From Sulfitobacter faviae (GTDB taxonomy: Bacteria; Pseudomonadota; Alphaproteobacteria; Rhodobacterales; Rhodobacteraceae): a stretch of 64,000 bases of DNA. Location of the stretch: NCBI RefSeq assembly GCF_029870955.1, contig NZ_PGFQ01000001.1, positions 1,488,001-1,552,000 of the forward strand, in the 5' to 3' direction. The notes beneath the pieces are model-generated. The model had not been told where the DNA came from. It did not search any database and saw only the letters and a list, made by a program, of their open reading frames with translations. The position numbers and the translations under genes are program-made. Positions 1-62,721 of the stretch are shown in pieces. Each line of letters opens with the position of its first letter. Position 1 is the first letter of the stretch.

Positions 1-1669
1 CGCTTGGAGGCTGAGATCCGCCGCCACGGGCTGCCCTACCCCGACGCCGAAGGCTTGGCCGAGATTGCAGAGCGCGCCGCGAAACGGATGGAAGACCCCA
101 GCGGTTTCCGCGATTGGGTCGCTTGGCTGGGCGAGGTTTTCCCCGGCCATGACACCCCGGAGAGCGGCCCCTGCCCGAATGCGTCGCCGCGCATTTGGCG
201 CTGGCTGAAAGGATCGCCGCCGGGCAACCCGCCGATCCCGACCACCTGCTTTGGCAGCAGGGCGCGGGCATCGCGGCCGAGGCGGTGATGGCGAACCTCA
301 CGGAACATGCAGCCCACGGCGGGGCGATGAACGCCGCCGATTATGCCGATCTCTTGGGCGCACTCTTGGCCCAAGAAGAGGTGCGCGAGGCCGATACCCC
401 GCATCCCGACATCATGATCTGGGGCACGATGGAGGCGCGGGTGCAGGGGCCGAGCTGGTCATCCTTGGCGGTTTGAACGAAGGTACATGGCCCGAAGCGC
501 CGCCGCCCGATCCATGGCTCAACCGTCAGATGCGCGAGAAGGCCGGGCTGCTGCTGCCCGAACGGCGCATCGGCCTGTCGGCGCATGACTATCAACAGGC
601 CATCGCCAGCCCCGAGGTTTGGATCACCCGCGCGATCCGCTCGGACGAGGCCGAGATGGTGCCGTCACGCTGGCTGAACCGCTTGGGCAATCTGCTGGGC
701 GGCTTGGGCGACACCGGCGGGCCGGAGGCATGGAAGGCCATGCAGCAGCGCGGCAACCACTGGCTGGATCAGGTGCGCGCCTTGGAAGCGGTGGAGCGCA
801 CCGCCCCGGCCACGCGCCCCTCGCCCCGCCCGCCGCGCGCGGCGCGCCCCCGCAAACTGTCGGTGACCGAGATCAAGACGCTGATCCGCGATCCTTACGC
901 GATCTATGCCAAACACAGCCTGAAACTGCGCCCGATCAACCCGCTGGTGCAATCGCCCGACGCGCCGGTGCGCGGCATCGTCCTGCACCGCATCATGGAA
1001 GATTTCGTCAAACTGGTGGCCCGCGATCCTGCGCGGCTGACCCGCGACACGCTGATGCAAGTGGCCGCCGAGGTGCTGGAGGAAGAAGCCCCCTGGCCCG
1101 CCGCCCGCGCCATGTGGCTCGCCCGTATCGACCGGATCGCCGATTGGTTCATCGCCCGCGAAAGCCAACGCGCTGAGTTCTCTAGCCCCGTCGCTTTTGA
1201 ACAGGGCGCGCGGGGCAGCTACACCTTTGCCGACCTCGGCTTTACCCTCAGCGGCTTTGCCGACCGGATCGACCAGACCGATGACGGCGATGTGCTGATC
1301 TACGACTACAAAACCGGCACCCCGCCCGGCAAAAAGGAGCAGCGGCTGTTCGACAAGCAACTCTTGATCGAAGCGGCGATGGTCGAACGGGGCGGTTTTC
1401 CCGAGGTGGGCGTGGCCCATGTGGCCCATGCTGCCTTTATCGGTCTAGGGTCGAAACCCGTCGAAGTCCCCGCCCCGTTGGAGGAGGAAAACCCGCAAGA
1501 GGTGCTGGCCGGTCTGCACGCGCTGCTCTCGCGCTACCTCGATGAGGGGCAGGGCTTTACCGCGCGGCGGATGGTACAAAGCGATGCCTTTGCCGGAAAC
1601 TTTGACCAATTGGCGCGGTTCGGGGAATGGGATGGCACCAGCCCCGCCCGACCGGAGGATCTGGAATGA
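1..1669 (+). CDS. addB: AddB, double-strand break repair helicase-nuclease subunit (left end cut; two frame breaks)
   Basis: C-terminal ~556 residues of AddB, which with AddA forms the RecBCD-like helicase-nuclease that resects double-strand breaks for recombination. The motif LGGLNEGTWPE lies near 466-498. The C-terminal nuclease motif is visible as GFADRID (1253-1273) and IYDYKTG (1298-1318). The reading frame changes twice: at the C run 168-171 (needs one more C) and at the G run 446-449 (needs one more G). After restoring these, the protein reads continuously to TGA at 1667-1669, which overlaps the addA start. The true start lies left of the window. I infer sequence errors rather than a pseudogene because addA is intact and many neighbours show the same kind of break. 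Confidence 0.9.
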
Positions 1670-4600
1670 TGCGCGATTTCAACGATGCCACCCGCGCCCA
1701 GATCGAAGCGGCGCGGCCCGATGCCTCCACCTGGCTGACCGCGAATGCGGGCTCGGGCAAGACCCGCGTGCTGACCGACCGCGTGGCGCGGCTGCTGCTC
1801 GACGACGTGGAGCCGCAGCATATCCTTTGCCTGACCTATACCAAGGCGGCGGCCTCGGAGATGCAGAACCGCCTGTTCAAACGCTTGGGCGAATGGGCGA
1901 TGCTGAAAGATCAGGCACTGCGCAGCGCCTTGGCCGATCTTGGCGTTCAGGGCGAATTGACGCCCGAGCAACTGCGCAATGCCCGCACCCTTTTTGCCCG
2001 CGCGATCGAGACGCCCGGCGGGCTGAAAATTCAGACCATCCACTCTTTCTGCGCGGCCCTTCTGCGCCGCTTCCCGCTGGAGGCGCAGGTCAGCCCGCAA
2101 TTCACCGAGATCGAAGACCGCGCCGCCGATCTGCTGCGGGCCGAGATCGTCGATGAGATGGCCGAAGGCGAAGACGCCCCGCTGGTCGCCGAGATCGCGC
2201 GGCACTACACGGGCGAAGATTTCGCCAGCCTCACCCGCAGCATCGTGGGCCAACGCGATGCCTTCAGCACCCCCCGCACTTGGCCCGAGATCCTAGCGCT
2301 TTTCGCCCAGCCTGAAGACCTCACCGAAGACAAGATCGCGGCCTCGGTCTTCCTTGGCAGCGAAGCGGCGATGATGGCCGAGATCATCCCCCATCTGCTG
2401 GCCAAAGGCGGCAATGACGGCAAGGCGGGCGCGGCGCTGCAAGAGATCGACCGCTATGATCTGTCCGCCCTGCCCCAGCTAGAAAACATCCTTCTGACCG
2501 GCAGCGGCGCCAAGGCGCCCTTTACCGCCAAGATCGGCAGTTTCCCGACCAAGCCGACGCAAAAGGTTATCGCCGAACAGATGCCGCAGCTTGAGCAGTT
2601 GATGCAGCGCGTCGAAGATGCCCGCGAAGCGCGGCTGGCGCTGAAGGCGGCGCGCAAATCCTATGTGCTGCACCGTTTCGCGGCCCGCTTTCTTGAACGC
2701 TACGCAGATGAGAAACAAAAACGCGGCTGGCTCGACTTTGACGATCTGATCCTCAAAGCCCGCGCCTTGCTGACCGACAAGGCCGTGGCCGCTTGGGTGC
2801 TGTTCCGCATCGACGGCGGCATCGACCATATCCTTGTCGACGAGGCGCAGGACACCTCGCCCCGGCAATGGGACGTGATCGAACGGCTGACAGATGAATT
2901 TTACTCCGGCGCCGGGGCGCGTAACGAGGTGGATCGCACGCTCTTCGTCGTGGGCGATAAGAAGCAATCGATCTACTCTTTTCAAGGCGCGGACCCCGAA
3001 GAGCTGGACCGCAAAGGCACGACATTCGAACAGAAGATCGGTGAGGCCGGCCAGTTTTTCCAGCGCCGCAGTCTTGCCTATTCCTTCCGCTCCTCTTCGG
3101 CGATTCTGCAAGCGGTCGATGGGGTTTTCGACCCCGCGATCCAGACCGGCTTTACCAATGACGGCCATATGGCCTTCAAGGATCGCCTGCCCGGCCGCGT
3201 CGATCTTTGGCCCTTCATCGAAAAGGCAGGCCCTGACGAGGAAGGCGATTGGACTGACCCCGTCGACCGACGCAGCGCGCGGCATCACACGGTGCAACTG
3301 GCCGAACGCATCGCGCGGCGCATCAAGGAGTTGACGACCGAGGAGCATTACCTCCCCGACGACAGCAAGGGCGGCTTGGCGCGGCGGCGCATTCAGCCGG
3401 GGGATTTTCTGATCCTCGTGCAGCGCCGCTCGGCACTCTTTTCCGAGATCATCCGCGCTTGCAAGGCGGCGGAACTGCCCATCGCAGGGGCCGACAGGCT
3501 CAAGGTTAGGGCCGAACTGGCGGTGCGCGATCTGGCGGCGATCCTGTCGTTCCTTGCAACGCCGGACGACGATTTATCGCTTGCCACCGCGCTGAAATCG
3601 CCACTTTTCGGCTGGTCGGAACAAGAGCTTTTCACCCTCGCCCATCACCGTAAGGAGGATCACCTCTGGCAAGCGCTGCGCAACCAGACCGAGGCCCACG
3701 CCGCCACCCTCGCCGTGCTGCGCGACCTGCGCGGGCAGGTCGATTACCTGCGCCCCTACGATCTGATCGAACGCATTCTCACCCGCCACGATGGGCGCCG
3801 CAAACTGCTCGCGCGGTTGGGGCCCGAGGCTGAGGATGGGATCAACGCGATGCTGAGCCAAGCACTGTCCTACGAGCGCGGCACGGTGCCCAGCCTGACC
3901 GGGTTCCTGCAATGGATGCAGACCGATGATCTGGAAATCAAACGCCAGATCGACAGCGCGTCGAACCAGATCCGGGTGATGACGGTGCATGGTGCCAAGG
4001 GTCTGGAAGCGCCGATTGTGATCCTGCCCGACACCGGGCGGCGCGATGTGACGATCAAGGATGAGATCATCACCGTTGACGGCACCCCCGTCTGGAAAGC
4101 CCCGGCGGATGACATGCCCCAGCCCATGCGCGCCCGGCTGGACGAGATGAAAGAGGCCGCGCTGCAAGAACGGCTTCGCCTGTTCTATGTCGCCATGACG
4201 CGGGCCGAGAAATGGCTGATCGTGGCCGCGGCGGGGGAATTGTCGAAAGATGAATCCTCTTGGTATCAGATCACCGCTGCCGCTTTGGCGCGGCTCCGCG
4301 CCGAGCCTTTGGGCGACGATGGCACGCTGCGCTATCAACAGGGCGATTGGGATGCGCTTGACATCATAGAGACGCCTAAGAAAACCGTCACAACGCCCAG
4401 GTTAGACCCTGTTTTCACCCGCTCCGCCCCCTCCCCCAAGGGAGAGGATAAGACCCTCTCGCCCTCAGATCTCGGCGGAGCCAAGGCGCTTGCCGGTGAG
4501 GCCGGGCTCGATATGGACACTGCGCTGAGCTATGGCACGCTGGTCCATGAGCTGCTGGAACATCTGCCGCTGATGGGGACGGATGCCCGGGAGATCTTTC

Positions 4601-5037: not shown

Positions 5038-5073
5038 GTTCAGGCCTCAACCCATTCCTGTCAGGAGAGCATC

Positions 5074-5394
5074 ATGGCAACCGTCGCAGTCACCGACGAC
5101 ACTTTCGACGCCGAAGTCAAAAATTCGGACATTCCGGTTCTGGTCGATTTCTGGGCCGAATGGTGCGGCCCGTGCAAACAGATCGGCCCTTCGCTGGAAG
5201 AGCTGTCGGATGAAATGAACGGTCGCGTGAAGATCGTCAAAGTCAACGTCGACGAAAACCCGAACTCGCCCGCCCAAGTCGGCGTGCGCGGTATCCCGGC
5301 GCTGTTCATCTTCAAGGACGGGCAGGTCGTGTCCAACCTCGCCGGCGCGCGCCCCAAGGCGGCCCTGCAAAGCTGGATCGAAGAATCCATCTAA
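5074..5394 (+). CDS. trxA: Thioredoxin
   Basis: Cytoplasmic disulfide reductase of 106 residues, the standard thioredoxin length. The redox-active WCGPC occupies residues 30-34 within [11 protein letters not shown], and the cis-proline motif is GIPALFIF. It lies 36 bases after addA with the ribosome-binding sequence CAGGAGAG just before ATG 5074. A good intrinsic terminator follows (5423-5450), so it probably ends the addB-addA transcript or is its own short unit. No unusual features. Confidence 0.98.
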
Positions 5395-5422
5395 GGCCAA
5401 CGCCTTAGGCATTGAGTTACGA

Positions 5423-5450
5423 AAACGGGCGTCCTTCGGGGCGCCCTTTT
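5423..5450 (+). terminator. Intrinsic terminator after trxA
   Basis: Hairpin with arms GGGCGTCC (5427-5434) and GGGCGCCC (5439-5446), one G-T wobble, tight loop TTCG, followed by TTTT. It sits 32 bases past the trxA stop in the 198-base gap before hslV. The rest of that gap shows nothing I can name. Confidence 0.85.
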
Positions 5451-9288: not shown

Positions 9289-10345
9289 ATCGCGCTCTCC
9301 GGCAGGAAAGCATAGGCGCGTTGGATGGGCATCAAGACCATCATCCGCCCCGGATCACGCAGACGGCCCGCCGCGCGGCCCGCTTTGTCACCGGTGCCAA
9401 AGAATACATCCGCCCGCTGCGCGCCCTTGATGGCCGAGCCTGTATCCTGAGCGACCATCAAACGCCGCAGAGGCGCCTTCCCGTCCTTTTCGATCCAGAC
9501 CGGCGCGCCGAGCGGCACATGCGACGGGTCCACCGCGATGCTGCGCATGGCGGTGATGGACCGGTTCATCGCCCCCAGCGGCCCCTTGTCGGCGGGCACG
9601 CGGCTGACTTCGCGGAAGAAGACGTATGACGGGTTGTGATAGAGCAATTCGCGGCCATCTTCGGGGTTGCGGCGCACCCAATTCTTGATGACATCGGCGC
9701 TGACCTGATGCGCCTCATAGACCCCACGCCGCACCAATTCGACCCCGACCGAGCGGTAATCATGGCCATTCGCGCCGCGATAGCCCACCCGAAGATAGCT
9801 GCCATCAGGCAGGCGAATACGGCCAGAGCCCTGAATTTGCAGAAAGAACAGCTCAACCGGGTCATCGACCCAAGCGATCTCAAGCCCGCGGTCGCGCATC
9901 ACGTCGCCATCTAGGATCTCGCGTCTGGTGAGCCATGGGCGGATCTGCTCGGCCTCGGGGGCATGGCGTAGATGGGATATTGAAACCGGGCAGAGGGGTA
10001 GAGATCGCCGTCCAATTCAGGCTCGAAATACCCAGTGAAAAGCGCGTCATTGCCGTCTTCCATCAGAACGGGGCGAAAGAACAATTCGAAGAACTGCCGC
10101 GGGTCGGGGCCATCTTTGGCCAGCTGGCAGAGCGCGCGCCAATCGACGTCTTTCATGTCGCCGCAGGTGCTGGTGAAAACCTCGAAGGCAGCGGCGTGGT
10201 CATCTTCGGCCCAGCCCTCAAGCTGGTCGAAATCCATGACGGTATAATGCACCTCTGCTGCGGACGGCGTGTTCATCGACACACCGCCCAACAGCGCCAG
10301 TGCGCCAAGCGCACGCGCTACCCGTCTGTGGAAACCAACAGCCAA
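9285..10345 (-). CDS. mltA: MltA, membrane-bound lytic murein transglycosylase A (one frame break)
   Basis: Cleaves peptidoglycan glycan strands to 1,6-anhydro products in the periplasm. The N-terminal part (FTGYFEPELDGD) and the C-terminal part (ELFFLQIQGSGRIRL, VAQDTGSAIKGAQRADVFFG) are both strongly MltA-like, but they lie in different frames. Adding one G to the plus-strand G run 9957-9961 joins them into about 353 residues, close to the family length. I favour the TTG start at 10345, which gives an n-region with RR and a hydrophobic signal segment; ATG 10261-10259 region would lose it. No lipobox Cys is seen, unlike E. coli MltA. It lies just inside the end of the upstream Tim44-like gene. 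Confidence 0.87.
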
Positions 10346-10977: not shown

Positions 10978-11080
10978 CGAAACCTCATTCAGGGGTGGCA
11001 TGGAAACATGCGAGTTAAGCTCTTATGTAGGTGTTCGACCGGGGCAAGTCCACTCTGCCCCAGCGAAAGGACTCCGCCGC

Positions 11081-13402: not shown

Positions 13403-14234
13403 CAGCGCAGCACCGCCGTTCGCGTGGCGCGGTCGACCTCGGGCCGCTGGCCGAACCAACGCTCGAACGCCGGGACGGCCTGATGCAACAACATGCCCAG
13501 CCCGTCGACCGTGACGCAGCCCATATCCTCAGCCGTCTCAAGCAGATGGGTCCGCAGCGGGGCATAGACGAGATCCGTCACCACCGTGCCGGGGCGCAGC
13601 CCATCCAGCGGCACCCGCAAGGCGCCTTTGCCAATCATGCCAAGCGATGTGGTGTTCACCAACAAACTTGCGTGATCGATCATATTGCCCGCTTGCACCC
13701 AATCGACGACTTTGACCCGGCCGCCGAAATCGCGCTGCAACTGCTCTGCCCGGACGCGGGTGCGGTTTGACAGGCAGATCTCAGGCACGCCAGCATCCAA
13801 CAGCGAGGAGACAACTGCCCGCGCCGCGCCCCCGCGCCCAAGACCGCCGCCGGTCCGGCCTTCGGATCCCAATCCGGCGCACCAGCTTTGAGGTTTTCGA
13901 TGAAGCCGTAGCCATCCGTATTATCCGCATGAATCTTGCCATCGGCGCGAAAGATCAACGTATTGGCCGCGCCGATCAGAGTGGCCCTGTCGGTGATAAG
14001 ATCCGCGATTTCCATCACCGCTTCTTTATGAGGGATTGTCAGGTTCACCCCAACAAAGCCCATCTTGGGCAGCGTTCTCAGCACCTCTTCCAGATCATCG
14101 GAGGCGACATCAAGCGGCACGTAATGACCGGCGATGCCATAGGTCTCCAGCCAATGGCGATGCAACTGCGGGGATTTGGAATGCGCGATGGGCGATCCGA
14201 TCACACCGGCGAGGGGGATTTTGGGCAGGCTCAT
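13402..14234 (-). CDS. aroE: Shikimate dehydrogenase (one frame break)
   Basis: NADPH-dependent reduction of 3-dehydroshikimate in the shikimate pathway. The N-terminal part has GSPIAHSKSPQLHRHWL and NLTIPHKEAVM, with the catalytic Lys in the latter. The NADP-binding part should read LGAGGAARAVV. That glycine-rich motif is split: one base is missing in the C run 13829-13833 (plus strand), and the reading frame changes in the middle of it. Restored length is about 277 residues, normal for the family. It overlaps maf by four bases at its start and coaE by one base at its end. Confidence 0.92.
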
Positions 14235-20277: not shown

Positions 20278-20878
20278 GCGAATTGCGTAAACTCGATGTT
20301 TCACGTGAAACATTTGAAAAGCTCGAAGCCTTTGGGGAGCTTGTTCGGAAATGGAACCCGAGGATAAATTTGGTTTCCAAGAGTAGCTTGGAAGACCTTT
20401 GGACGCGTCACATTTTAGATTCCGTTCAGGTCTTCAACCTTGCCGAAGGCAGCGGCGTTTGGGTAGACCTCGGTAGCGGCGGGGGTTTCCCGGAATTGTC
20501 GTTTCGATCCTTAACCAAGAGGAACGACATTTCGACGTTACTTTGGTGGAGAGTGACCAGCGGAAATGCGCATTCCTACGGACTGCCATTCGAGAGCTGA
20601 CGCTAGAGGCCTCTGTAAAGAATGAGCGGATTGAGGAAGTAAAAAGCCTTAATGCCGATGTCCTGTCAGCGCGTGCCTTGGCTGATTTGACAAAGCTCTT
20701 AGGGTTCGCCGAATTGCATCTTAAGCCCGAAGGAACTGCCCTCTTTCCAAAAGGTCAGAGTTGGCAACGGGAGGGCGAAGAGGCGCGGCTGAGTTGGATG
20801 TACGGCCTCGAACCGGTACCCTCCCAGACCAATCCCGAGGCTGCCATTCTAAAGATTAAGGATATCGCCCGTGTCTGA
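20274..20878 (+). CDS. rsmG: RsmG, 16S rRNA m7G527 methyltransferase (one frame break)
   Basis: Methylates G527 of 16S rRNA (E. coli numbering). The N-terminal part has [16 protein letters not shown] and [12 protein letters not shown]. The SAM-binding loop starts DLGSGGGFP and should continue GIVVSIL, but the frame changes there: one G is missing after CCC at 20492-20493. The remainder ([20 protein letters not shown], then [16 protein letters not shown]) is in the other frame. Restored length is about 201 residues, normal. The start overlaps the mnmG stop and the end overlaps parA by eight bases. It contains parS site 2. Confidence 0.92.
20297..20312. promoter_or_regulatory. parS centromere site 2 (TGTTTCACGTGAAACA)
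   Basis: Second perfect copy of the 16-base palindrome, extended to 18 bases by flanking A and T (20296-20313). It codes for VSRET near the N-terminus of RsmG. It lies 5.1 kb from the right edge of oriC and 0.6 kb before parA. Confidence 0.93.
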
Positions 20879-26813: not shown

Positions 26814-26846
26814 GAAAGAGGCGGTCAGGAAGTGGCCGCCTCTTTC
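26814..26846. terminator. Bidirectional terminator hairpin between grpE and mutS
   Basis: Perfect 11-base arms GAAAGAGGCGG (26814-26824) and CCGCCTCTTTC (26836-26846). The 11-base loop contains the mutS stop codon. So the right arm codes for the last residues of MutS. Both strands carry T-rich edges. It probably ends transcription from both sides. Confidence 0.7.
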
Positions 26847-29470
26847 AGTTTGTAGATCAGTTCCAGCGCCTCGCGCGGGGAGAGCTCATCGGGGATCACC
26901 TCGCGTAGTTTGTCCTCGACCGGCGAGGATTTCACCGGCTGCGGCGCAGGCGTGGGGCTGACGGTAAAGAGCGGCAGATCGTCGATCAGTGTCTTTTGTG
27001 TGGCCCCGCCTTCGCGTTCGCCTTTCTCCAATGCCTCCAGCACCACGCGGGCCCGTGCGATCACCGGGGCGGGCAGGCCGGCCAGCTGCGCCACCTGCAC
27101 GCCATAAGAGCGGTCCGCGGCCCCCTTGCGCACTTCGTGCAGGAAGACGACCTCGCCCTCCCATTCCTTGACTGCCACCGTGGCATTGTCGACCCCCGGC
27201 AGCTTGCCGGCCAGTGCCGTCATCTCGTGATAATGGGTCGCGAAAAGTGCCCGGGTCCGATTCACGTCGTGCAGATGTTCCAACGTGGCCCAAGCGATCG
27301 AGAGGCCATCGTAGGTGGCCGTGCCGCGCCCGATCTCGTCGAGGATCACCAGTGCGCGGTCGTCGGCCTGGTTCAGGATCGCGGCGGTTTCGACCATTTC
27401 CACCATGAAGGTCGAGCGGCCCCGCGCCAGATCGTCCGAGGCACCGACGCGGCTGAAGAGCTGGCTAACAACGCCAATATGCGCCGAACTCGCGGGCACG
27501 AAACTGCCCATCTGCGCCATCAGGGCGATCAGCGCGTTCTGGCGCAGGAAGGTCGATTTACCCGCCATGTTCGGGCCGGTGAGCAGCCAGATGTTGGCGG
27601 CCTCGGCCTCGGCACTCAAGTCACAGTCATTTGCGATGAAAGGCTCGCCCGATTGCTGGGTCAGAGCGCGTTCCACGACCGGATGCCGCCCACCTTGGAT
27701 GTCAAAGGCGCGGGACATATCCACGCGGGGGCGGGTCCAATTCTCACTCCGGGCGAGGTTTGCTAGACCTGTGGCCAGATCGACTTCGGCCAGCCCGGCA
27801 GAGGCTTGGCCGATCTCTGCGGCATGCTCTAGAATAGCACTCCGAAGACTTTCGTAGAGCCGCTTTTCGATCTCCTGCGCGTGGTTGCCTGCATTGAGAA
27901 TTTTCGTCTCCAACTCAGACAGTTCGACAGTGGTAAAGCGCACTTGGTTCGCCGTGGTTTGCCGGTGGATAAAGGTCTCTGACAGCGGCGGGTTCAGCAT
28001 CTTTTCGGCATGGGTCGCGGTGCATTCGACGAAGTATCCCAGCACATTGTTGTGCTTGATTTTCAGCGACGAAATCCCCGTATCAGAGACGAACTGCTGC
28101 TGCATACCGGCAATCACGCTGCGGCCTTCGTCGCGCAGCTCTCGCGCGGCGTCGAGGTCGGCGTCATGGCCGGGGGCGATGAAACCGCCGTCGCGCACCA
28201 TCAGCGGGGGCTCGGCCACCAGCGCGTGATCCAACAGGTCGATAAGCTCCCCATGGCCCTGCAACCCTTCGGCGGCTTCGCGAAGCAGGTCGGGCAGATC
28301 CTGTTGTGCCAGGCTTTGGTGCAAAGCCTCGGCTTCGATCAACCCATTGCGGATCGCGGCAAGGTCGCGCGGTCCGCCCCGGTCGAGCGAGAGGCGTGAC
28401 AGCGCCCGGTCGAGGTCTGGCACATTGCGCAGACGTTGGCGAATGTCCTCGGCAACGCGGGCGTTGTCATAGGCAAAGCTGACCGCATCGGCGCGGGAGG
28501 TCACCACGTCGACAACGCGCGAGGGGCTTGAGATCCGCCGCTCCAACAGGCGCGCGCCCCCGGCGGTGACGGTATTGTCCATGATCGACAGCAAAGACCC
28601 GGCGCGGCCACCATTTAGGGAGTGGGTGAGTTCCAGATTGCGCCGGGTTGCCGCGTCAATCTGAACGGTGCGGGCCTCTGCCTCTTTCTGGGGCGGGCGG
28701 AGCAGGGGCAGCTTGCCGCGTTGAGTGATAGTGAGGTATTCTATTACAGCTCCCATGGCCGAGACTTCGGCGCGGGTGAAGCTGCCGAAAGCCTCTAGCG
28801 TGGCGATATCAAACAGGTCGCAGACCCGTTTTTCCGCACTGGTGCTGTCAAAGGCCGAACGGGCCAGACCCGTCAGTGCGATCCCGAAATCAGAGACGAC
28901 ATCGTGCAATTCCGTCTCTTTCGCCTCTGAGACGATCAGTTCCGATGGTGACAGCCGCGCCAATTCCGGCCCCAGCCGGACTTGGGCCAACGGCATCACG
29001 TGAAACGCACCGGTCGAGATATCGACCCAAGCCATCGCGCAGGCATCGCGCACCTCGGCAAAGGCGGCGAGGTAATTGTGCCGCCGCGCTTCCAACAGGC
29101 TTTCCTCGGTCAGCGTGCCGGGGGTGACCAGCCGCACCACGTCGCGTTTTACCACCGCCTTGTAGCCGCGTTTCTTCGCCTCTGCGGGGCTTTCCATCTG
29201 CTCGCAGACCGCCACGCGAAACCCCTTGCGGATCAGCGTCAACAGGTAACCTTCGGCGGCATGCACCGGCACGCCGCACATGGCGATATCCTTGCCCTGA
29301 TGCTTGCCGCGTTTGGTGAGTGCGATATCCAACGCCTCTGCCGCGGCGATGGCATCGTCAAAGAACATCTCGTAAAAATCGCCCATGCGGTAGAACAGCA
29401 ACGCGTCCTGATGGTCCGCTTTAAGCTCGAGATATTGCGCCATCATTGGCGTTACTTTTTCTGTCTGCAC
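26825..29470 (-). CDS. mutS: MutS, DNA mismatch recognition protein
   Basis: Binds mismatches and starts methyl- or strand-directed repair. 881 residues, full length. The mismatch-binding N-terminus has DALLFYRMGDFYEMFFDDA with the Phe-X-Glu motif. The ATPase has GPNMAGKSTFLRQ (Walker A), DEIGRGTATYDG (Walker B and signature), and FATHYHEMTAL. The C-terminal end lies within a shared terminator hairpin. Divergent from maeB across 127 bases, in which I find no clear promoter. Confidence 0.97.
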   Translation of the reverse strand: MQTEKVTPMMAQYLELKADHQDALLFYRMGDFYEMFFDDAIAAAEALDIALTKRGKHQGKDIAMCGVPVHAAEGYLLTLIRKGFRVAVCEQMESPAEAKKRGYKAVVKRDVVRLVTPGTLTEESLLEARRHNYLAAFAEVRDACAMAWVDISTGAFHVMPLAQVRLGPELARLSPSELIVSEAKETELHDVVSDFGIALTGLARSAFDSTSAEKRVCDLFDIATLEAFGSFTRAEVSAMGAVIEYLTITQRGKLPLLRPPQKEAEARTVQIDAATRRNLELTHSLNGGRAGSLLSIMDNTVTAGGARLLERRISSPSRVVDVVTSRADAVSFAYDNARVAEDIRQRLRNVPDLDRALSRLSLDRGGPRDLAAIRNGLIEAEALHQSLAQQDLPDLLREAAEGLQGHGELIDLLDHALVAEPPLMVRDGGFIAPGHDADLDAARELRDEGRSVIAGMQQQFVSDTGISSLKIKHNNVLGYFVECTATHAEKMLNPPLSETFIHRQTTANQVRFTTVELSELETKILNAGNHAQEIEKRLYESLRSAILEHAAEIGQASAGLAEVDLATGLANLARSENWTRPRVDMSRAFDIQGGRHPVVERALTQQSGEPFIANDCDLSAEAEAANIWLLTGPNMAGKSTFLRQNALIALMAQMGSFVPASSAHIGVVSQLFSRVGASDDLARGRSTFMVEMVETAAILNQADDRALVILDEIGRGTATYDGLSIAWATLEHLHDVNRTRALFATHYHEMTALAGKLPGVDNATVAVKEWEGEVVFLHEVRKGAADRSYGVQVAQLAGLPAPVIARARVVLEALEKGEREGGATQKTLIDDLPLFTVSPTPAPQPVKSSPVEDKLREVIPDELSPREALELIYKLKEAATS

Positions 29471-29597
29471 GGCTGCCCCCTGTTGCCGCGCGGACCCTAC
29501 AAAACCCCCGGCGCAGCGAAAGGGGGGCGGGGCCTTGGGCGGTCTTTGTCATGCGATTTGCACTGACGCGGGGCTTGCGTTGTGCTGAAGTCGGATC

Positions 29598-31895: not shown

Positions 31896-32769
31896 TGATC
31901 TGGAATCTCGGCTCTATCAACGCGGATAACTTCTATCTGCTGCCCCATCTGCCGGGACCGGGAGAGACCATTTCAGCCCGGAATTTCCGGCAGGGGCTGG
32001 GCGGCAAGGGGGCCAATATGTCGGTCGCCGCCGCCCGGGCCGGGACGCGGGTGATGCATGTCGGCGCATTGGGCGCCGATGGCGGTTGGGCGCTGGAACG
32101 GCTTTTGGAATACGGGGTCGAAACGGCGCATATCACCTTGATGGAGGGCGTGACCGGTCACGCCAACATCGCCGTCGATCTGGAGGGGGAGAACAATATC
32201 GTCATCTTCCCCGGCACCAATCACGAGATCACCGACGAGATGATCGGTGCCGCGCTGAGCGAGGCTTCCTCGGGCGATTGGCTTTTGATGCAGAACGAAA
32301 CCAACGGGCAGCGGTTCGCGGCGCGAACGGCGAAAACTCTGGGCCTGCGACTGGCCTATGCCGCCGCCCCTTTCGATGCGGATGCGGTGACGGCGATCCT
32401 CGAACAGATCGACCTATTGGTGCTGAACGAGGTCGAAGCGGCGCAGTTGCGGGCCGCGACGGGGGGCGAGTTGCGGCAACTGCCGATCGACGACATCGTG
32501 GTGACGCTGGGGGCGGGGGCTGTGAATGGGTCTCTAACAAGGCACATCTGGTCGAAAGCTTCCCCGCCTATCAGGTCGAGGCGGTGGATACGACCGGCGC
32601 GGGCGATACTTTTACCGGCTATCTGCTGGCCGGGTTGGACCGGGGGATGACCATGCCGCAGGCGATTGATCTGGCCATGCGCGCGGGGGCCTTGATGGTC
32701 ACGCGTCATGGCACGGCAGATGTGATCCCCGATCTGAAAGAGATCCGGGATCACGATTTTCGCAGTTAA
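31895..32769 (+). CDS. PfkB/ribokinase-family sugar kinase (one frame break)
   Basis: Phosphorylates a sugar or nucleoside; ribose is plausible but not proven. The N-terminal half has FRQGLGGKGANMSVAAARAG, the family GGKxxN signature. The C-terminal anion-hole motif DTTGAGDTFTG, which contains the catalytic Asp, is in another frame. One G is missing from the run 32515-32519; restoring it gives about 291 residues. The ATG overlaps the maeB stop by one base, an unusual but tight coupling. A transporter for the sugar is not visible nearby. Confidence 0.88.
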
Positions 32770-36276: not shown

Positions 36277-37507
36277 ATGGCGGATGAATTTGCACGAAAA
36301 GCACAGGCGGCGGCAGAAGCGCTGCGGGCATTGTTCCCGGCGACACCGCTTTTGCGCAATGAGCATCTGTCGGAGCGGTTTGGCGCGGATATCTGGTTGA
36401 AGCGCGAGGATCTGAGCCCGGTGCGCTCCTACAAGCTGCGCGGGGCCTTCAATGCGATGCGTAAGGTGATCCCGGGGCAGGGGTTTTCGTCTGTGCCTCT
36501 GCCGGGAACCATGCGCAGGGGGTGGCTTTTGCCTGTAGTCATTTCGGGGTGCGCGGCGTGATCTTCATGCCGGTGACGACGCCGCAGCAGAAGGTGCAGA
36601 AGACCCGCATGTTCGGCGGTGAGAATGTCGAGATCCGGTTGGTGGGGGATTATTTTGACGCCACGCTGGCCGCAGCGCAGGATTTCTGTCGGGAGGAGGG
36701 GGCGCATTTTCTGTCGCCTTTCGATGATGACGATGTGATCGAGGGGCAGGCGTCGGTCGCGGTGGAGATTGCCGCGCAGTTGGGCCGGGTGCCGGACCGG
36801 GTGATCTTGCCGGTGGGCGGCGGCGGGCTGTCTTCGGGGGTAGTAAGTTATTTTGGTGAGGCTTGCGATTATACATTCGTCGAACCCGCCGGTGCGCCGA
36901 GCCTTGCGCGGGCGTTGGAAGCCGGGGCGCCGGTTGATGTCTCTCCGATCGATAACTTTGTCGATGGTGCTGCGGTGGCCAAGATCGGTGCGCGGACTTT
37001 CGAGCGTTTGCGCGGGGTGAACCCGGCGGATGTGGTGCATCTGCCTGAGGACCGGATCTGCGTGACGATCAATGAGATGTTGAATGTCGAAGGCATCGTG
37101 TTGGAACCGGCAGGCGCGCTATCGATCGATGCGCTGGGCGAGGTGGCCGATCAGATCGCGGGCAAGACGGTGGTTTGCGTGGCCTCGGGGGTAATTTCGA
37201 TTTCGAGCGTTTGCCGGAGGTCAAAGAGCGGGCGCAGCGCTATTCGGGTGTGAAGAAATATTTCATCCTGCGCATGCCGCAGCGGCCCGGGGCGTTGAAG
37301 GAATTCCTGATGCTGCTGGGGCCGGAGGATGACATCTGCCGTTTCGAGTATTTGAAAAAATCGGCGCGGAACTTTGGTTCGGTCCTGATCGGGATCGAGA
37401 CGCGGCGGCCGGAGAATTTCAAACCGTTTCTTGAGCAATTGGGGCAATCCGGCTTTACCTATACGGATATCACCAACGACGAAACCTTGGCGCAGTTCGT
37501 TCTGTAG
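36277..37507 (+). CDS. ilvA: Threonine ammonia-lyase (two frame breaks)
   Basis: Deaminates threonine to 2-oxobutyrate, the first step to isoleucine. PLP-enzyme blocks: REDLSPVRSYKLRGAFNAM with the Schiff-base Lys, then SAGNHAQGVAFAC, then VGGGGLSSGVVSYF for the PLP phosphate. The C-terminal regulatory part has RYFILRMPQRPGALKEF-like sequence, a single ACT-like domain. Two frame breaks: T run 36484-36487 (needs five T) and G run 37187-37191 (needs six G). Restored length about 410 residues, the short single-domain form. AAGGAGA precedes ATG 36277. Confidence 0.92.
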
Positions 37508-37585: not shown

Positions 37586-38837
37586 ATGAAATTGGATATC
37601 CCCAGCCTTTCCGAAGCAGTGGCGACGCCTGCTGTGGCGCCTTTGGTTTTGGTGGTCGAGGGGGATGAGACCCGGCGGGCCTGTCTTTCGACGGCGTTGA
37701 AGGGATGGGGATATGAGGTGGTTTCTGCCGCCTCGGAAGCCGAGGCGCCGGCCCTTTGCACGCAGCGGGGGCCTGATATCGTGCTTTGCAGTGGGGCGAT
37801 ATCGGGGCTCGATTTTTGTCGGGCTTTCCGGGAGCTCTCGGAAGCGCGCAGTTATCTCATTCTGTTGGTCGATAGTCAGGAGGGGGTGGTGGACTGCGCT
37901 CTTGATGCGGGGGCTGATGATGTTTTGATACGGCCCGCCGGTCTGCCGGAGCTACGCGCGCGTCTTATGGCGGGGGCGCGTTTTCTGGCCATGCAGCGGG
38001 AGTTGACGCAGAAAAACCAGCTGATCACCGAGACTTTGGATATTCTGCGGCAGGTGCATGCGCGGATCGACAAGGATTTGGTCGAGGCGAAGAAATTTCA
38101 GCAATCGCTGCTTCGCGAGCGTTATCGTGCCATGGAGGGGGGCAATCTGTCGATGATGCTGCGCTCTGCCGGGCATGTTGGCGGGGATTTGGTCGGGTAT
38201 TTCCCGGTGCGGCCGGGGGTCGTTGGGCTGTTTGGCTTGGATGTGTCTGGGCATGGGATCAGTTCGGCCCTGATGACGGCGCGGCTGGCGGGGTATCTGT
38301 CGGCGGCCACGCCGGATCAGAACCTTGCCCTCACGCTTTCGCCCGGGGGACCTACGCGGCGCGTCCACCGGGTGAAGTGGTTGCGGAACTGAACGATCTT
38401 GTTCTTCATGAGATGGAGACGGAGCATTATTTCACCCTGATGCTGGCCATTGCGGATCTCACGACTGGGGAGGTCACTGTCGCGCAGGCGGGGCATCCGC
38501 ATCCGGCCTTGCTGCGCTCGGATGGGCGGGTCGAACAATCGGGCACCGGGGGTTTCCTGTCGGGCTGCTTTCTGGGGTGGGGTTCGAGGACTATAAACTT
38601 CAGATGGCGCCGGGGGATCGTTTGTTGATCCTATCTGATGGGGTGACGGAATGCCCCGATCCGGAGGGGGAGATGTTGGGCGAAGAGGGTTTGGCCCGCA
38701 TGTTGGGCGAATTGCGCCGGTTCAGCGGCCCGGCGCTGCTGAGTGCGCTGGTTTGGAAGTTGTCGGAATTCGCTGATAGCCGCGATTTCCCCGATGATGT
38801 CTCGGGGATATTGCTTGAGTATCACGGCAACGCCTAG
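37586..38837 (+). CDS. Receiver-PP2C (SpoIIE-type) phosphatase with degenerate receiver (two frame breaks)
   Basis: About 417 residues after repair. Residues ~20-140 resemble a response-regulator receiver but lack its key residues: the phospho-acceptor Asp is replaced by Ser (PDIVLCSGAISGLDF), the first acidic pair reads EG, and the conserved Lys is Arg (DVLIRPAGLPEL). A coiled linker follows. The PP2C domain keeps its metal-binding acids: GGDLVGYF, LDVSGHGISSALM, LILSDGVTECPD, DDVSGILLEY. It probably dephosphorylates an anti-sigma-antagonist. Frame breaks at G runs 38345-38349 and 38548-38552, each one G short. No anti-sigma partner lies nearby. Confidence 0.83.
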
Positions 38838-49122: not shown

Positions 49123-49163
49123 CGACATCCCCTGATTCCTTGATGCAATAGCTGATTCCGGGT

Positions 49164-50681: not shown

Positions 50682-51499
50682 TCAATCGGGGAGGGGTTCC
50701 TCGCGACTATTCAGCGCATCTGCCAGCCGTTGCTGCGCCGATCCGGGGCGCAGTGGTTTCTGCTGGCTTTCGTCCGGTGCCCAACCGGCAAGAAAGATCA
50801 TGTCGAAAGTCGCCGTGATCCGGCCCGAGGCGGCGGTGAAATGCGTGGCGTAAAGCTCAGCCGCGCGGGTCAGCACGGCGCGGCCCGTGGGGCGGCGCAG
50901 GCGGGCTTGCAGGGCGTTGGTCTCTCCCATCTCGCGCAGATCACGCATCAGGGCCCATGCGTCATCATATTCCACGGTCAGCGGTTGGCTATCGGCCACG
51001 GGCAGGGCCAGCCCCGCGCGTTGCAGCAGCGCGCCCAGATCGCGCAGTTCCCCATCGGGGCGATGCGGGGCGACAGGCCACCGGTCACTTCGGCTTCGGC
51101 CTGGCCAAGGCAGGCGCGCAGCTCATGCAGGGTTTGCCCGCCAAGCGCCACGGCCTGTAACAGCCCGTCAGGGCGCAGTGCGCGGCGGCATTGGATCAAC
51201 TGGCCGATGGGGTCATTCGCCCAATGCAGCCCCATGGCGTGGATCACCAGATCATGCGCCTGCGGTTCCAGCGCCAGCACCTCGGCCTCAGGGACGATCT
51301 CGGCCTTCGGAAAAGCCTCTGCCCAGACCTGCGGGAAGGCGGTCACGATGGCCGGTGCGGTAAACGTTTTCTTAACCAAACTCAGCCGATCCTGAACCTC
51401 ATCGGCGGCTGCCTGTTGCAGGAACATGCCCCGCGCCGTCGCGCGGGCGCGGTGCTGGGCGAGGGCCTTGGGGTCGGTCAGGGTGGGCTGTGCTGTCAT
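50682..51499 (-). CDS. BioC-like SAM methyltransferase (one frame break)
   Basis: About 272 residues after repair. The N-terminus has QHRARATARGMFLQQAAADE and the middle HDLVIHAMGLHWANDPIGQL and CRRALRPDGLLQAVALGG. These resemble the BioC/UbiE-type methyltransferase core that sits beside comF in alphaproteobacteria. The C-terminus lies in another frame because one base is missing in the C run 51050-51053. I chose ATG 51499. Divergent from comF with only 14 bases between. Substrate uncertain. Confidence 0.82.
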
Positions 51500-51513: not shown

Positions 51514-52244
51514 ATGCCGCCACGGGGACTTCAAACAGCAGTGTCGCTTATCTATCCGCCGCGTTGTCTGGGCTGCGGGGGCTTGTCGATGCGGATTTCG
51601 GCCTCTGCGGCACCTGCTGGCGCGACACGGCCTTCATCGGGGGAACGGTCTGCGATGCCTGCGGCGTGCCCCTGCCGGGCGGCGGGGATGTGGGTTCACC
51701 CCATTGTGATGCCTGTCTTGCCACGCCGCGGCCTTGGGCGCAGGGGCGCACGGCGCTCATCTACCGCGATATGGGGCGCAGGCTGGTTCTGGCGCTGAAA
51801 CATGGCGACCGGCAAGAGATCGCCCGCCCCGCCGCGCGCTGGATGGCGCAAGCGGCACAAGGCATGTTGCCGCAAGAGGCGCTGATCGCGCCGGTGCCGC
51901 TGCATTGGCTGCGTTTGCTGAAACGGCGTTACAATCAATCGGCTCTGCTGGCCAAGGCGCTGTCAGCGGAAACCGGGCACCGCTGGTGTCCCGATCTGTT
52001 GCAGCGGGTCCGGCATACGCCCTCGTTGGAGGGTTTGGGCCGTGCAGCCCGGTATCGCGTGTTGGAACAGGCGATCCGCGTGCATCCTCGGCGGCGGCAC
52101 CGTATCATGAGGCGACCGGTGATCTTGGTGGACGATGTCTTTACCTCCGGCGCCACATTGACCGCCTGCACGCAGGCCTGTCTGGCCGCCGGGTCCGGCC
52201 CCGTTTTCGTGCTGGCACTGGCGCGCGTGGCCAAAGAGACCTAG
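51514..52244 (+). CDS. comF: ComF family phosphoribosyltransferase-like protein (one frame break)
   Basis: Family linked to DNA uptake and to amidophosphoribosyl-like folds. About 243 residues after repair. The N-terminal zinc ribbon has YPPRCLGCGGL, then CGTCW, CDACGVPLP and CDACL. The C-terminal phosphoribosyl motif is VILVDDVFTSGATL. The frame break is at the G run 51577-51581 (one G short). Start could be ATG 51514, or GTG 51541. Neighbouring divergent BioC-like gene and downstream glutaredoxin fit the usual alphaproteobacterial comF locus. Confidence 0.87.
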
Positions 52245-52542: not shown

Positions 52543-53368
52543 AAATCGCGCTGCTGCAACTCAACGTCTCGGATGACCCCGCCGCCAATCTGGTCGAGAC
52601 CCGCGCTCTGCTGGGCGAGGCGGTGGCGGGCGGGGCCGAGTTTGTCCTGACCCCCGAGGTGACGAATTGCGTCAGCACCAGCCGGTCCCATCAACAGTCG
52701 GTGTTGGCCTATGAGGAAGACGACGCCACCCTCGCGGCCCTGCGCGAAGAGGCGGCGAAGGTGGGCATCTGGCTGCTGATCGGCTCGCTCGGTCTGAAAA
52801 CGCGCGGGGAGACGGGCGCTTTGCCAACCGGTCTTTCCTGATTTCCCCGCAGGGGGAGATCGTCGCGCGCTATGACAAGATCCATATGTTTGATGTGGAT
52901 ATCAACGAGACCGAAAGCTACCGCGAGTCCGCGGGCTATCGCCCCGGTGACAAAGCCGTGGTGGCCGAGACGCCTTTTGGCAAGATCGGCATGTCGATCT
53001 GCTATGACATGCGTTTTCCGGCGCTTTATCAGGCGTTGGCCGAGGCCGGTGCGCGTATCCTGACCATGCCAGCGGCCTTCTCTCCGGTCACCGGGGCCGC
53101 GCATTGGCACAGTCTGCTGCGGGCGCGGGCGATCGAGAATGGCTGCTATGTGCTGGCCCCGGCCCAGACGGGCACCCATGCCAGCGCCGCGCATAAGACC
53201 CGCGACACCTATGGGCATTCTCTGGTCGTGGCCCCTTGGGGGGAGGTTGTGTTGGATGCCGGGACGGCCCCCGGCGTTTACTTTTGTGACATGGACATGG
53301 AAGAATGTGACAAGGCCCGCGCCAAAGTGCCCAGCCTTGCCAACCGCCGCCCCTTTGCCGCGCCCTGA
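52539..53368 (+). CDS. Carbon-nitrogen hydrolase (nitrilase family; one frame break)
   Basis: About 276 residues after repair. The Glu-Lys-Cys triad is visible: Glu in FVLTPEVTN, Lys in ARYDKIHMFDVD, Cys in SICYDMRFPALYQA. The family includes deaminated-glutathione amidase, and the neighbouring glutaredoxin makes that substrate plausible. The frame break is at the G run 52806-52809 (one G short). It follows grxC with a four-base overlap and precedes a MarR regulator. Confidence 0.9.
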
Positions 53369-54613: not shown

Positions 54614-55585
54614 ATGGACAAGTATCCCGACCAAAAACGCGGCGCGCCGCATCTTTATCCGCCGGTTGAGCCTTTCGACCAGCGGATGTTGTCCGTAGGG
54701 CAGGGGCATCAGGTCTATGTCGAGCAATGCGGCAACCCCGAGGGCATCCCCGTCGTGGTGCTGCATGGCGGCCCCGGCGGCGGTTGCAGCCCGGCGATGC
54801 GGCGGTATTTCGACCCTAAGGTTTACCGCGTGGTGCTGTTCGATCAGCGCGGCTGCGGCCGCTCCACCCCGCATGCTTCGGTTACCGACAACACGACATG
54901 GCATCTGGTCGCGGATATCGAGCTGATTCGCACCACGCTTGGCATCGACAAATGGATGGTCTTCGGCGGCTCTTGGGGCGCGACGCTTTCGCTGATCTAT
55001 GCCCAAGCGCACCCCGAAGCGGTGCGCCATCTGATCCTGCGCGGCGTCTTTCTGATGACGCAGGCCGAGCTTGATTGGTTCTACGGCGGCGGGGCCGGGC
55101 GGTTCTGGCCCGAACTGTGGGCGCGTTTCGTGAACCTGATCCCCGAAGATGAGCGGGACGATCTGATCGCGGCCTATCACCGGCGGCTCTTCTCGGGCGA
55201 TTTGCGGGTCGAGCAGGACTATGGCCGCGCATGGGCCGCTTGGGAGAATGCGCTGGCCTCGGTACATTCCGATGGCGTTTCGCATGGCGGGCCATTGGCC
55301 TATGCGCGGGCCTTTTCGCGGTTGGAGAACCATTATTTCACCAACAATGGCTTTTTGGAATTCGACGGTCAGATCCTCGAACATATGGGGCGGATCGCGC
55401 ATATCCCGGGGGTCATCGTGCAGGGGCGCTATGACATGATCTGCCCGCCTGCGGGGGCCTATGCGCTGGCCGAACGCTGGCCCAATGCCGACCTGCGGAT
55501 GATCCGGGATGCGGGCCATGCCCTGTCGGAGCCGGGGATCAGTGCCGAATTGGTGCGCACGATGGATAGGATCGGGCAGCGATGA
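54614..55585 (+). CDS. pip: Proline iminopeptidase
   Basis: Alpha/beta hydrolase of 323 residues that removes N-terminal proline from peptides. The oxyanion loop is LHGGPGGGC, the nucleophile elbow is GGSWGATLSL with the catalytic Ser, and the catalytic His is near the C-terminus in DAGHALSEPG. Divergent from ubiG. The stop overlaps the start of the substrate-binding protein (ATGA). Confidence 0.94.
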   Translation: MDKYPDQKRGAPHLYPPVEPFDQRMLSVGQGHQVYVEQCGNPEGIPVVVLHGGPGGGCSPAMRRYFDPKVYRVVLFDQRGCGRSTPHASVTDNTTWHLVADIELIRTTLGIDKWMVFGGSWGATLSLIYAQAHPEAVRHLILRGVFLMTQAELDWFYGGGAGRFWPELWARFVNLIPEDERDDLIAAYHRRLFSGDLRVEQDYGRAWAAWENALASVHSDGVSHGGPLAYARAFSRLENHYFTNNGFLEFDGQILEHMGRIAHIPGVIVQGRYDMICPPAGAYALAERWPNADLRMIRDAGHALSEPGISAELVRTMDRIGQR

Positions 55586-56444
55586 GCGGGCGCAACTCTT
55601 TGCTGGATCGCCGGGCGCTTTTCACCACCGGTGCGGCGGCGGCCCTGCTGGCCGCGACAGGTGCGAGCGCGGGGGAGCCGCCCCGGCGGGGGGGGCGTTT
55701 GCGGTTGGCGCTTTCGGGTGCCACGCGAGAGGACACTTGGGTCAATGGCGATGGGCTCTTCATGCAGGTTGCGCGGCAGGGGATGATCTTTGACACGCTG
55801 ACCGAAGTCACCGGCAATGGCATCCTCAAAGGTGAGTTGGCGACCGGTTGGCAGGCCAGCGATGGCGCCCGGCAGTGGCAGTTCGATCTGCGCCCCGATG
55901 TGCGTTTTCACGATGGCAGCCCCCTGAGCGCCCGCGATGTGGTGGCCAGTTTACGCGGTCTGCTGGCCGGGGCCGAGGTCGCCGTTCAGGACAATCTGCA
56001 AGTGCAGGTCACATTGGCGGCGGCGAATCCTGACCTGCCGCTCCTGCTGGCGCAATCGCCCTATGTGATCCGCCCCGCACATGCGCCCGAGGCCGGGATC
56101 GGCACCGGGCTTTACCGTCTGCGGCGCTTTTCCGCCGGACGTCAGGTTTTGGCCGAACGGGTAGAGACGCATTACAAGGACGGCACCGCCGGGTGGTTCG
56201 ATACGGTCGAACTGGTGTCGCTCCCCGCCCGTGAGGTGCGGGCGCAGGCGCTGAGCGAAGGGCTTGTTGATGCAGCGGATTTACCCGCGCGGCCCCGTTA
56301 CCGCGACCGGGGGATGTGACCCTTCAGGCTGATAGCGCAGGCGGGGTCAGCGCATTGTCGGGCGATCTGCGCCAGCCGCCGAACCCCGGACGCCAAGCGC
56401 CGATGGACAACCTGCGCGCGCCCGAGCGGTGGTGGTTCGGCTGA
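55582..56444 (+). CDS. Short ABC-type (SBP family 5) substrate-binding protein (one frame break)
   Basis: About 287 residues after repair. A signal region begins [20 protein letters not shown], of Tat-like form. The domain has [25 protein letters not shown] and [13 protein letters not shown], typical of peptide-binding SBP5. The frame break is at G run 56309-56313 (one G short); the correct frame continues to [11 protein letters not shown] and stops at 56442-56444. It is shorter than the ~500-residue classic family, so the second lobe is reduced. No transporter genes are adjacent; pip is coupled upstream. Confidence 0.78.
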
Positions 56445-56479: not shown

Positions 56480-56532
56480 CCCTTCAACAGCGGCGCTTTC
56501 GGGTCCAAACCGAAGGCTCCACCGAATTCGTG

Positions 56533-56556: not shown

Positions 56557-56580
56557 GTGCCCAGTGAAAATGGATGTCTC

Positions 56581-58787: not shown

Positions 58788-58807
58788 GCGGGCCTCGGGG
58801 GTTGCAC

Positions 58808-59428
58808 ATGGGACGCGGTGGCGCCTCGAATGACCGCTCAGACGGTGCGGAACGCAAGTGCATCGCTACGGGCGAGGTGCAGCCGAAACACGGGTTGATC
58901 CGTTTCGTGGTCGGCCCGGACAATCAGGTCTACCCGGATATTCCGGGTAAACTGCCGGGCCGGGGCATCTATGTCGCGGCGGATCGTGCGGCGCTGGAAT
59001 TGGCCATCAAGAAAAAGGCCTTTTCCCGCTCGGCGAAACAGCCGGTCACCCTGCCCGACGGGCTGGTCGACGAGGTCGAGCAGCAGTTGGCGCGCCGGGT
59101 GGTGGAGCTGATCTCGCTCCAGCGCAAGGCGGGCAAGGCGGTCGCCGGTTACGAAAAGGTCAAGGGTTGGTTGCAAACCGAAGAGGCCGAAGTATTGATA
59201 CAGGCCGTAGATGGGTCAGGGCGCGGTAAGTCCAAGCTGAGTACCCCACACTATGGTCATTACATCGGTTGGTTGACAGCCGATGAATTGGGTTTGGCAT
59301 TCGGTCGCCAAACTGTGATACATGGGGCGCTCGCCTCTGGTGGACTCACGCAACGTGTTGTAGAGGAAGCCGGTAGACTTAAAGGCGTGCGCGTAAACGA
59401 GGGTGGCAACGGCCATCCGAAAGGATAG
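58808..59428 (+). CDS. YlxR-L7Ae fusion RNA-binding protein
   Basis: 206 residues. The first ~90 match YlxR (DUF448): RKCIATGEVQPKHGLIRFVV and GKLPGRGIYVAADRAALELA. The second half (LISLQRKAGKAVAGYEKVK, then GWLTADELGLAFGRQTVIH) looks like a ribosomal L7Ae/L30e-type RNA-binding domain. Such fusion is common in alphaproteobacteria. It lies between nusA and infB, so a role in transcription-translation or ribosome assembly is likely. ATG 58808. Confidence 0.9.
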   Translation: MGRGGASNDRSDGAERKCIATGEVQPKHGLIRFVVGPDNQVYPDIPGKLPGRGIYVAADRAALELAIKKKAFSRSAKQPVTLPDGLVDEVEQQLARRVVELISLQRKAGKAVAGYEKVKGWLQTEEAEVLIQAVDGSGRGKSKLSTPHYGHYIGWLTADELGLAFGRQTVIHGALASGGLTQRVVEEAGRLKGVRVNEGGNGHPKG

Positions 59429-59437
59429 ACGAGCTTC

Positions 59438-61906: not shown

Positions 61907-61915
61907 GCCGAGTGC

Positions 61916-62721
61916 TTACAAGATGAATTCCCCAGAGGCCCGGTCGAATTGCCGGGCCTCTGCTTTTGTGAAGACCTTCTTGCTGTCATCGAAACTAATC
62001 CGCGCCAGATTGACGTGTAGGGGCGAGATATCGATCAGGTTGAAGTCATTCGGCTCCCCTCGCTGGCGCGAAGACAGGCTGGTGCCCGCGTGCAACTGGA
62101 TCGCCAGATGACCGTCATGCTCTGGCGCCGGATGGGCAAAGGTGCCCGCGTGCCAAATGTGCAGATGCCCCGAGAGGATTAGGTCCGCGCCGCAGTCCAA
62201 GAGCCGCCTCAGCGCGCGTTTCGCGCCCGGAATGGGCTTTTTGTGGGTCTCGTTGGGGTGATCCAGCGGATGGTGGCAAATGGCGATGCGCAGGGTCTTT
62301 TCCCCCCGCGCGACAGGGCGCGGCAGGCGCGGCCCAAACGGCGCAGGCCCAGTTTGCCGGTCTGCCATTTGAACCGATCAACGGTGTTGATCCCCACGGC
62401 GACAAAATCCGCCCCCTCATGTACCGGTGTAAGGTCGTGATCGATCCAACGCCGGTAATAGCGCCACGGGGCGAAAAACCGGGTAAAGGGGCGGTGCAGC
62501 GGAATATCGTGATTGCCCGGCACGCTCAGCACCGGTGCGTTGATCCTGTCGATAAAGGCCCGCGCGGCGCGATATTCCTTTTCCCGCGCCCGTTGGGTCA
62601 GGTCGCCCGAGATGATCACCAGATCGGGGTCATAGCCATTCACCGCCTCTAGGAGCGGCACCAATAGGTCGGGGCGGTCTTTGCCGAAGTGCAGGTCGGA
62701 TAGGTGGATCAAACGGCTCAT
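61916..62721 (-). CDS. Calcineurin-like metallophosphoesterase (one frame break)
   Basis: About 268 residues after repair. Metal-binding blocks: HLSDLHFG, LVIISGDLTQ, VPGNHDIP, and CHHPLDHP, then LILSGHLHIWHAG. These are the calcineurin-like set. Most relatives cleave phosphodiesters (cyclic nucleotides, lipids); target unknown. The frame break is at the plus-strand C run 62302-62307, one base short. The start overlaps the end of the diacylglycerol-kinase-like gene as ATGA. Confidence 0.9.
61933..61967. terminator. Terminator hairpin after infB, overlapping the MPP gene end
   Basis: Perfect 11-base arms CAGAGGCCCGG (61933-61943) and CCGGGCCTCTG (61952-61962), loop of eight, then CTTTT on the plus strand. 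The same bases encode the last residues of the minus-strand metallophosphoesterase, so the hairpin doubles as coding sequence. Confidence 0.78.

Follow-up and report, generated by a model that had tools for sequence, protein, structure and literature searches.

Twelve broken genes in a 64-kb stretch

The window, by which we mean the whole analysed stretch of 64,000 nucleotides, is taken from an assembly of Sulfitobacter faviae (G000:C1:1488001-1552000, that is, contig C1 of the genome we call G000). The assembly amounts to 3.83 Mb in five contigs, and its completeness is stated as 100%. Among the genes of the window are addB, mltA, aroE, rsmG and ilvA, as well as genes for a PfkB-family kinase, a SpoIIE/PP2C-type phosphatase with a response-regulator domain, a metallophosphoesterase, and BioC-like, ComF-like, nitrilase-like and short SBP_bac_5-type (SBP5) proteins. 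Each of these genes is interrupted by one or two breaks of its reading frame (Table 1). A sequence-only reading of this DNA had counted fifteen such breaks, each one base short in a single-letter run, and had ascribed them to systematic under-calling of homopolymers in sequencing. We examined this proposal by comparing the window, and a sample of the rest of the genome, with related genomes.

For one window gene the closest relatives, among the best 80 loci listed, came from Sulfitobacter, Roseobacter and their kin. Two related genomes, G003 and G009, are collinear with the window, and three more distant ones, G012, G013 and G022, were also compared at the window sites. The window was aligned to each relative, with the open reading frames (ORFs) of the relative as reference. 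A break was kept if the change of phase was persistent and if, on both sides of it, the mismatches were biased toward third codon positions as read in the frame of the relative. All fifteen breaks proved to be one base short relative to intact ORFs of G009, and 13 of the 15 also relative to G003, in whose stretch the PP2C-type gene has no match, which accounts for the other two. The same sites appear in most cases in the more distant relatives. At three sites the difference from one relative is four bases instead of one, which leaves the frame the same. At the SBP5 site weak calls of +2, +4 and +2 were obtained against the three more distant relatives, and the alignment ends, has gaps or gives no call for the first addB break, for rsmG with G013, for the PP2C-type gene with G012 and G013 and for the metallophosphoesterase gene with G022, in whose stretch this gene has no match. 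A gene-by-gene check of the 12 genes in the five relatives, the alignment that the earlier reading had called for, gave 60 pairs, of which 58 match in one frame and 2 have no match, while the same 12 proteins match the window DNA in two or three frames. There are thus no matching breaks in related strains: the relatives are in one frame wherever they were matched.

Summed over the fifteen breaks, the mismatches at codon positions 1, 2 and 3 number 33, 9 and 190 on one side and 40, 19 and 167 on the other. This bias toward the third position indicates that selection acts on the frame on either side of the breaks. One-base losses affect 12 of the 60 ORFs of the window.

Table 1. Positions of the frame breaks in the window, and of the intact mutS gene; -1 and -4 denote bases missing relative to the relatives named
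Feature	Position	Strand	Run	Difference from relatives	Remarks
addB (double-strand break repair protein), break 1	155..158	+	C	one-base gap vs G003, G009	codon-position bias on both sides; G009 protein matches the AddB equivalog TIGR02786
addB, break 2	446..449	+	G	-1 vs 5/5	
mltA (lytic transglycosylase)	9957..9961	-	G	-1 vs 5/5	G009 protein has PF03562 and PF06725
aroE (shikimate dehydrogenase)	13829..13833	-	C	-1 vs 4, -4 (same frame) vs G013	shikimate dehydrogenase equivalog match; intact 277-amino-acid relatives match the window in two frames
rsmG (16S rRNA methyltransferase)	20481..20485	+	G	-1 vs G003, G009, G022; -4 vs G012	TIGR00138; in one frame in G013
PfkB-family kinase	32515..32519	+	G	-1 vs 5/5	PF00294
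ilvA (threonine ammonia-lyase), break 1	36480..36483	+	G, adjoining T run	-1 vs 5/5	alignment to G009 and G003 puts the gap inside the G run or at its end
ilvA, break 2	37187..37191	+	G	-1 vs 5/5	intact 410-amino-acid protein P0121 matches the window in three frames
SpoIIE/PP2C-type phosphatase with response-regulator domain, break 1	38345..38349	+	G	-1 vs G009, G022	G009 protein has PF07228 and PF00072
SpoIIE/PP2C-type phosphatase, break 2	38548..38552	+	G	-1 vs G009, G022	
BioC-like gene	51050..51053	-	C	-1 vs 5/5	name from the sequence-only reading; G009 protein without Pfam match at 1e-5
comF-like gene	51577..51581	+	G	-1 vs 5/5 (one weak)	zinc ribbon PF18912
nitrilase-like (carbon-nitrogen hydrolase) gene	52806..52809	+	G	-1 vs 4, -4 vs G012	PF00795
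short SBP_bac_5-type gene	56309..56313	+	G	-1 vs G003, G009	
metallophosphoesterase gene	62302..62307	-	T4/C6	-1 vs G003, G009, G013, G012	PF00149; gap between the T4 and C6 runs, assignable to neither
mutS, intact (mutator control)	26825..29470	-			881-amino-acid ORF, five MutS domains, equivalog match

Some details of the earlier account had to be changed. Its fifteen breaks stand, but the thirteen genes it spoke of are twelve, as in its own list. Twelve of its sites are where it put them, and three were misplaced by up to 13 bases: the first addB break had been put at 168-171, the rsmG break at 20492-20493 and the first ilvA break at a T run at 36484-36487, whereas the gaps align at the runs given in Table 1. 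Its division into fourteen G or C runs and one T run survives as far as the dominance of G and C is concerned; the T run is doubtful, since the adjoining G run fits better. That no break needs a gained base is true of all fifteen. At five sites (both in addB, and those in mltA, rsmG and the BioC-like gene), by our own reading of the alignments, the run is the same in a relative but for one additional base. The claim that adding the run's own base restores the gene is thereby not shown site by site, and finds its support in the genome-wide statistics given below.

A few other observations were made in the window. The SBP5 gene (55582-56441; L095:16112-16975 in a relative) encodes a protein shorter than is usual in its family, and the copy in G009 matches PF00496 (SBP_bac_5) only in part. 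We considered whether it might be a real pseudogene, and rejected this because five relatives have the same form of 282-287 amino acids in one frame; judged by sequence, it appears to encode a short protein that has been conserved, and not to be a gene in decay. A separate +1 call at about 5570 against G009 lies near the 5' end of an ORF with an uncertain start, and the extra base is also seen against G003. More differences in the length of G/C runs from G003, G009 or both were found outside firmly coding sequence, at 11061, 29505-29527, 34884 and 49128-49133, and are possibly due to the same under-calling. An Rfam scan gave no match.

One-base losses throughout the genome

The comparison was extended to a sample of 20 stretches of 20 kb each (400 kb), taken from contigs C1 (3,206,887 bases) and C2 (214,826 bases; two stretches), each aligned to the syntenic stretch of G009. 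In 333,469 aligned coding bases of 330 ORFs we kept 83 breaks (from 115 candidates), and 79 of them are losses of one base. As a background, the comparison was reversed, with G009 examined against G000 as the reference in the same stretches. Here only 3 breaks were kept, in 327,271 bases of 366 ORFs, from 106 candidates. The remaining candidates were discarded, either because their mismatches were too few or because they did not pass the codon-position test, and many of those in G009 are probably echoes of broken G000 ORFs that served as reference. Control comparisons between other pairs of genomes gave 0 or 1 kept break per roughly 75 kb of coding sequence. Given the background of 3 breaks in 327 kb, the Poisson probability of at least 15 breaks in the window is about 8e-17.

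The number of losses per 20-kb stretch ranges from 0 to 8, with a mean of 3.95 and a variance of 4.68, which is close to a Poisson distribution, and 19 of the 20 stretches are affected, both C2 stretches included. A break of some kind is present in 67 of the 330 sampled ORFs. Window and sample together give one loss per 4,200 coding bases, which by extrapolation would correspond to about 800 losses in the whole genome. When the 79 sampled losses were placed automatically, 77 fell at G or C, and 63 at runs of four or more. The four other breaks are L124:19811-19823 (-2), L132:4633-4639 (+5), L142:6814-6817 (+2) and L144:2105-2107 (+1), and may be real changes or alignment effects. The largest number of losses in one sampled gene, seven, was observed in L142 (G000:C1:102001-122000), in the gene that matches L143:914-6163; it encodes a protein of 1749 amino acids whose sole family match is a weak repeat model.

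Losses depend on base and run length

The lengths of single-letter runs were compared between G009 and G000 over 423 kb of alignment, with identical four-base flanks required. Of G/C runs with four bases in G009, 4 of 560 are one base shorter in G000; the corresponding figures are 14 of 141 for runs of five, the other 127 being unchanged, and 6 of 22 for runs of six. No G/C run of four to six is longer in G000, and one run of four is two bases shorter. The 2254 G/C runs of three include 3 that are shorter and 2 that are longer. For A/T, 3 of 258 runs of four are shorter, and all longer ones are unchanged (66/66 of length five, 12/12 of six and 2/2 of seven, 80/80 in total).

The comparison also bears on which base is lost. 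Where the G009 run is interrupted by another base and the G000 run is pure, the pure run is one base short in 8 of 64 cases for a total length of five and in 6 of 15 for six, against 1 of 39 and 0 of 17 in the reverse direction. The shares are similar to the direct rates, which indicates that what is lost is the run's own base, and an ordinary substitution followed by under-calling explains these cases. We also considered that the interrupting base itself, for example a modified base, might have been skipped; as a main cause this was rejected, since the 8 and 6 cases are about what substitution followed by under-calling would yield. At a total length of seven the numbers are too small for a judgement (2 one-short cases, no full run). 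There are also runs that kept their interruption but have a base missing, 20 of them in G000 and 9 in the reverse direction.

Intact copies and indispensable genes

When the first piece of the broken PfkB gene served as query, five full-length proteins of 291 amino acids (P0241-P0245) were returned, 99-100% identical over the matched part. They all match the window in two frames; for P0241 these matches comprise 207 of 208 and 84 of 86 residues. The five intact proteins are encoded on 7 contigs in all, the longest for each being of 457,398, 766,972, 648,767, 4,744 and 390,748 bases. Since C1 and C2 leave only about 409 kb for C3-C5, at least three of the PfkB-bearing contigs must come from other assemblies. 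The proteins may derive from other isolates or from a second assembly of the same strain, and either would support an artefact. Intact copies were sought for PfkB, IlvA and AroE; the best whole IlvA protein is 98% identical, and the best AroE protein 94%.

The losses also extend to genes that the cell cannot do without, such as valS, gmk and dapF. In G000 the valine--tRNA ligase gene valS is spread over three frames, whereas G003 and G009 have it in a single frame. It is single-copy, the next best match in G000 being the whole isoleucine--tRNA ligase. The genes for guanylate kinase (gmk) and diaminopimelate epimerase (dapF) are both in pieces in G000, though whole in G003, G009, G013 and G022. 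G000 has just one other guanylate-kinase-like match, which falls below the family cut-off and has counterparts in three relatives. The match to holA (DNA polymerase III delta) stops early in G000 only. DapE, a class II DAHP synthase, a glyceraldehyde-3-phosphate dehydrogenase and the biotin carrier protein are likewise encoded by broken genes, and RpoB and IleS are whole.

These findings can be set against the notion of real gene decay, in which the strain would have lost the genes by mutation. Frame breaks are often the first step in the formation of pseudogenes, and the reverse comparison has a background of apparent breaks of its own. Decay, however, does not agree with losses that are one-sided in direction and tied to run length, with the damage to single-copy indispensable genes, with a codon-position bias that continues across the joins, or with the intact, near-identical PfkB gene found elsewhere. 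We therefore regard decay as extremely improbable.

The broken indispensable genes could be accounted for if the G/C runs were truly short and slippage or programmed frameshifting at them still gave full proteins, and most of the break sites do have G/C runs of four to six. The isolate would then carry hundreds of G/C runs that are one base short and produce its full essential proteins by transcriptional or translational slippage. The shifted arrangement, however, is not conserved in the relatives, an intact PfkB gene nearly identical to the broken one exists, and most G/C runs of five are unchanged, so that run length alone gives no shift signal. Both the general proposal and this particular form of it strike us as vanishingly improbable.

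A mutL gene that reads as broken

A further possibility is that the isolate is a real mutator, in which a repair defect has made G/C runs lose bases by slippage. A loss rate that rises with the length of single-letter runs resembles slippage, and mutL lies in two open frames in G000, with a break one base short near a G4 run, while it is whole in G003, G009, G013 and G022. We examined the mutL stretch (L164, G000:C1:1152001-1172000), which was chosen for this gene and is excluded from the sample counts. All 8 of its candidates were kept and all are one-base losses, against 0 of 7 in the reverse comparison; 8 losses in 18.4 kb of coding sequence are about twice the mean. The mutL break is thus of the same kind as the breaks that surround it, and it is as likely to be a result as a cause. 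At the genome-wide rate, moreover, a break in a gene of the size of mutL is unsurprising, and MutS is intact (Table 1).

Slippage in a repair-deficient strain should also affect A/T runs and yield gains. Contrary to this, the A/T runs of five to seven are unchanged, no G/C run of four or more has become longer, and the loss of the single-copy genes valS, gmk and dapF should be lethal. With mutL broken, gene content alone would leave the mutator open, but the split indispensable genes, the untouched A/T runs and the lack of gains speak against it, and we consider it very improbable.

Comparison with known sequencing artefacts

The pattern was compared with published accounts of sequencing errors. 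In nanopore reads, run length is underestimated and accuracy drops above a length of five, or above four in bacteria of high GC content, C/G runs fare worse than A/T runs, and deletions predominate in the longer runs (Delahaye and Nicolas, 2021; PMC8486125). The losses in G000 resemble this account in that G/C runs are short, deletions predominate and the effect worsens with length. They differ in that the published work compared reads with known references, whereas G000 is known from its consensus alone. In the MinION assembly Pss508 there are mostly false deletions, found mainly after four to five equal bases, which fragment genes, and the deleted base is usually the run's own (Kastor, PMC12007338). 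G000 shares with it own-base deletions at short runs that fragment genes; unlike in Pss508, where A/T runs dominate and insertions occur too, nearly all events in G000 are at G/C and nearly all are losses. For consensus sequences of the R9.4.1 nanopore type, homopolymer indels have been described as the cause of frameshift errors in gene calling, even in high-quality genomes, and polishing with short reads removes them (Sereika et al., 2022; PMC9262707). This account too agrees with what we observe. On our analysis, the fit with these published artefacts suggests a long-read consensus without short-read correction.

Probable under-calling in the consensus

The losses in G000 run in nearly one direction, rise with run length, are confined to G/C runs, are spread over the genome in a near-Poisson manner and strike indispensable genes. 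This is what under-calling in a consensus predicts, and it supports the interpretation that had been proposed from the window alone. The breaks are almost certainly a known artefact, homopolymer under-calling in the consensus, and thus a finding about the quality of the data and not about biology. In the mechanism we propose, the sequencing method or the base caller would read G/C runs of about five or more one base short, and the assembly would have been made without correction by a method that resolves run length. If about one in ten G/C runs of five and one in four of six were called one base short, about one gene in five would be broken, while the genes would be intact in the living organism. 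We infer that it is the reads, rather than the DNA, that are short, and that a long-read method without short-read correction was used; PacBio or another run-sensitive method may have been the source.

Several observations do not fit this explanation easily. Of the 79 sampled losses, automatic gap placement puts 16 elsewhere than at a run of four or more bases. Ten of the fifteen window sites lack a relative in which the run is the same but for one additional base; there the relatives have an interruption in the run, or the site is ambiguous. The rpoB stretch (L138, G000:C1:1905001-1925000) has 0 kept breaks, although about 3 would be expected in its 12.6 kb of coding sequence, and the background of 3 in 327 kb implies that some breaks genome-wide may be real. 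The mutL gene reads as broken, which a true mutator could share, though its break is of the same kind as the others. Finally, the published MinION case has more A/T than G/C deletions (PMC12007338).

The importance of under-calling in this assembly lies in the use of the data, and it has none for the biology of the organism. Roughly a fifth of the genes will appear broken, despite a completeness given as 100%, and statements on gene loss, pathway completeness or pseudogenes made from the assembly would therefore be wrong.

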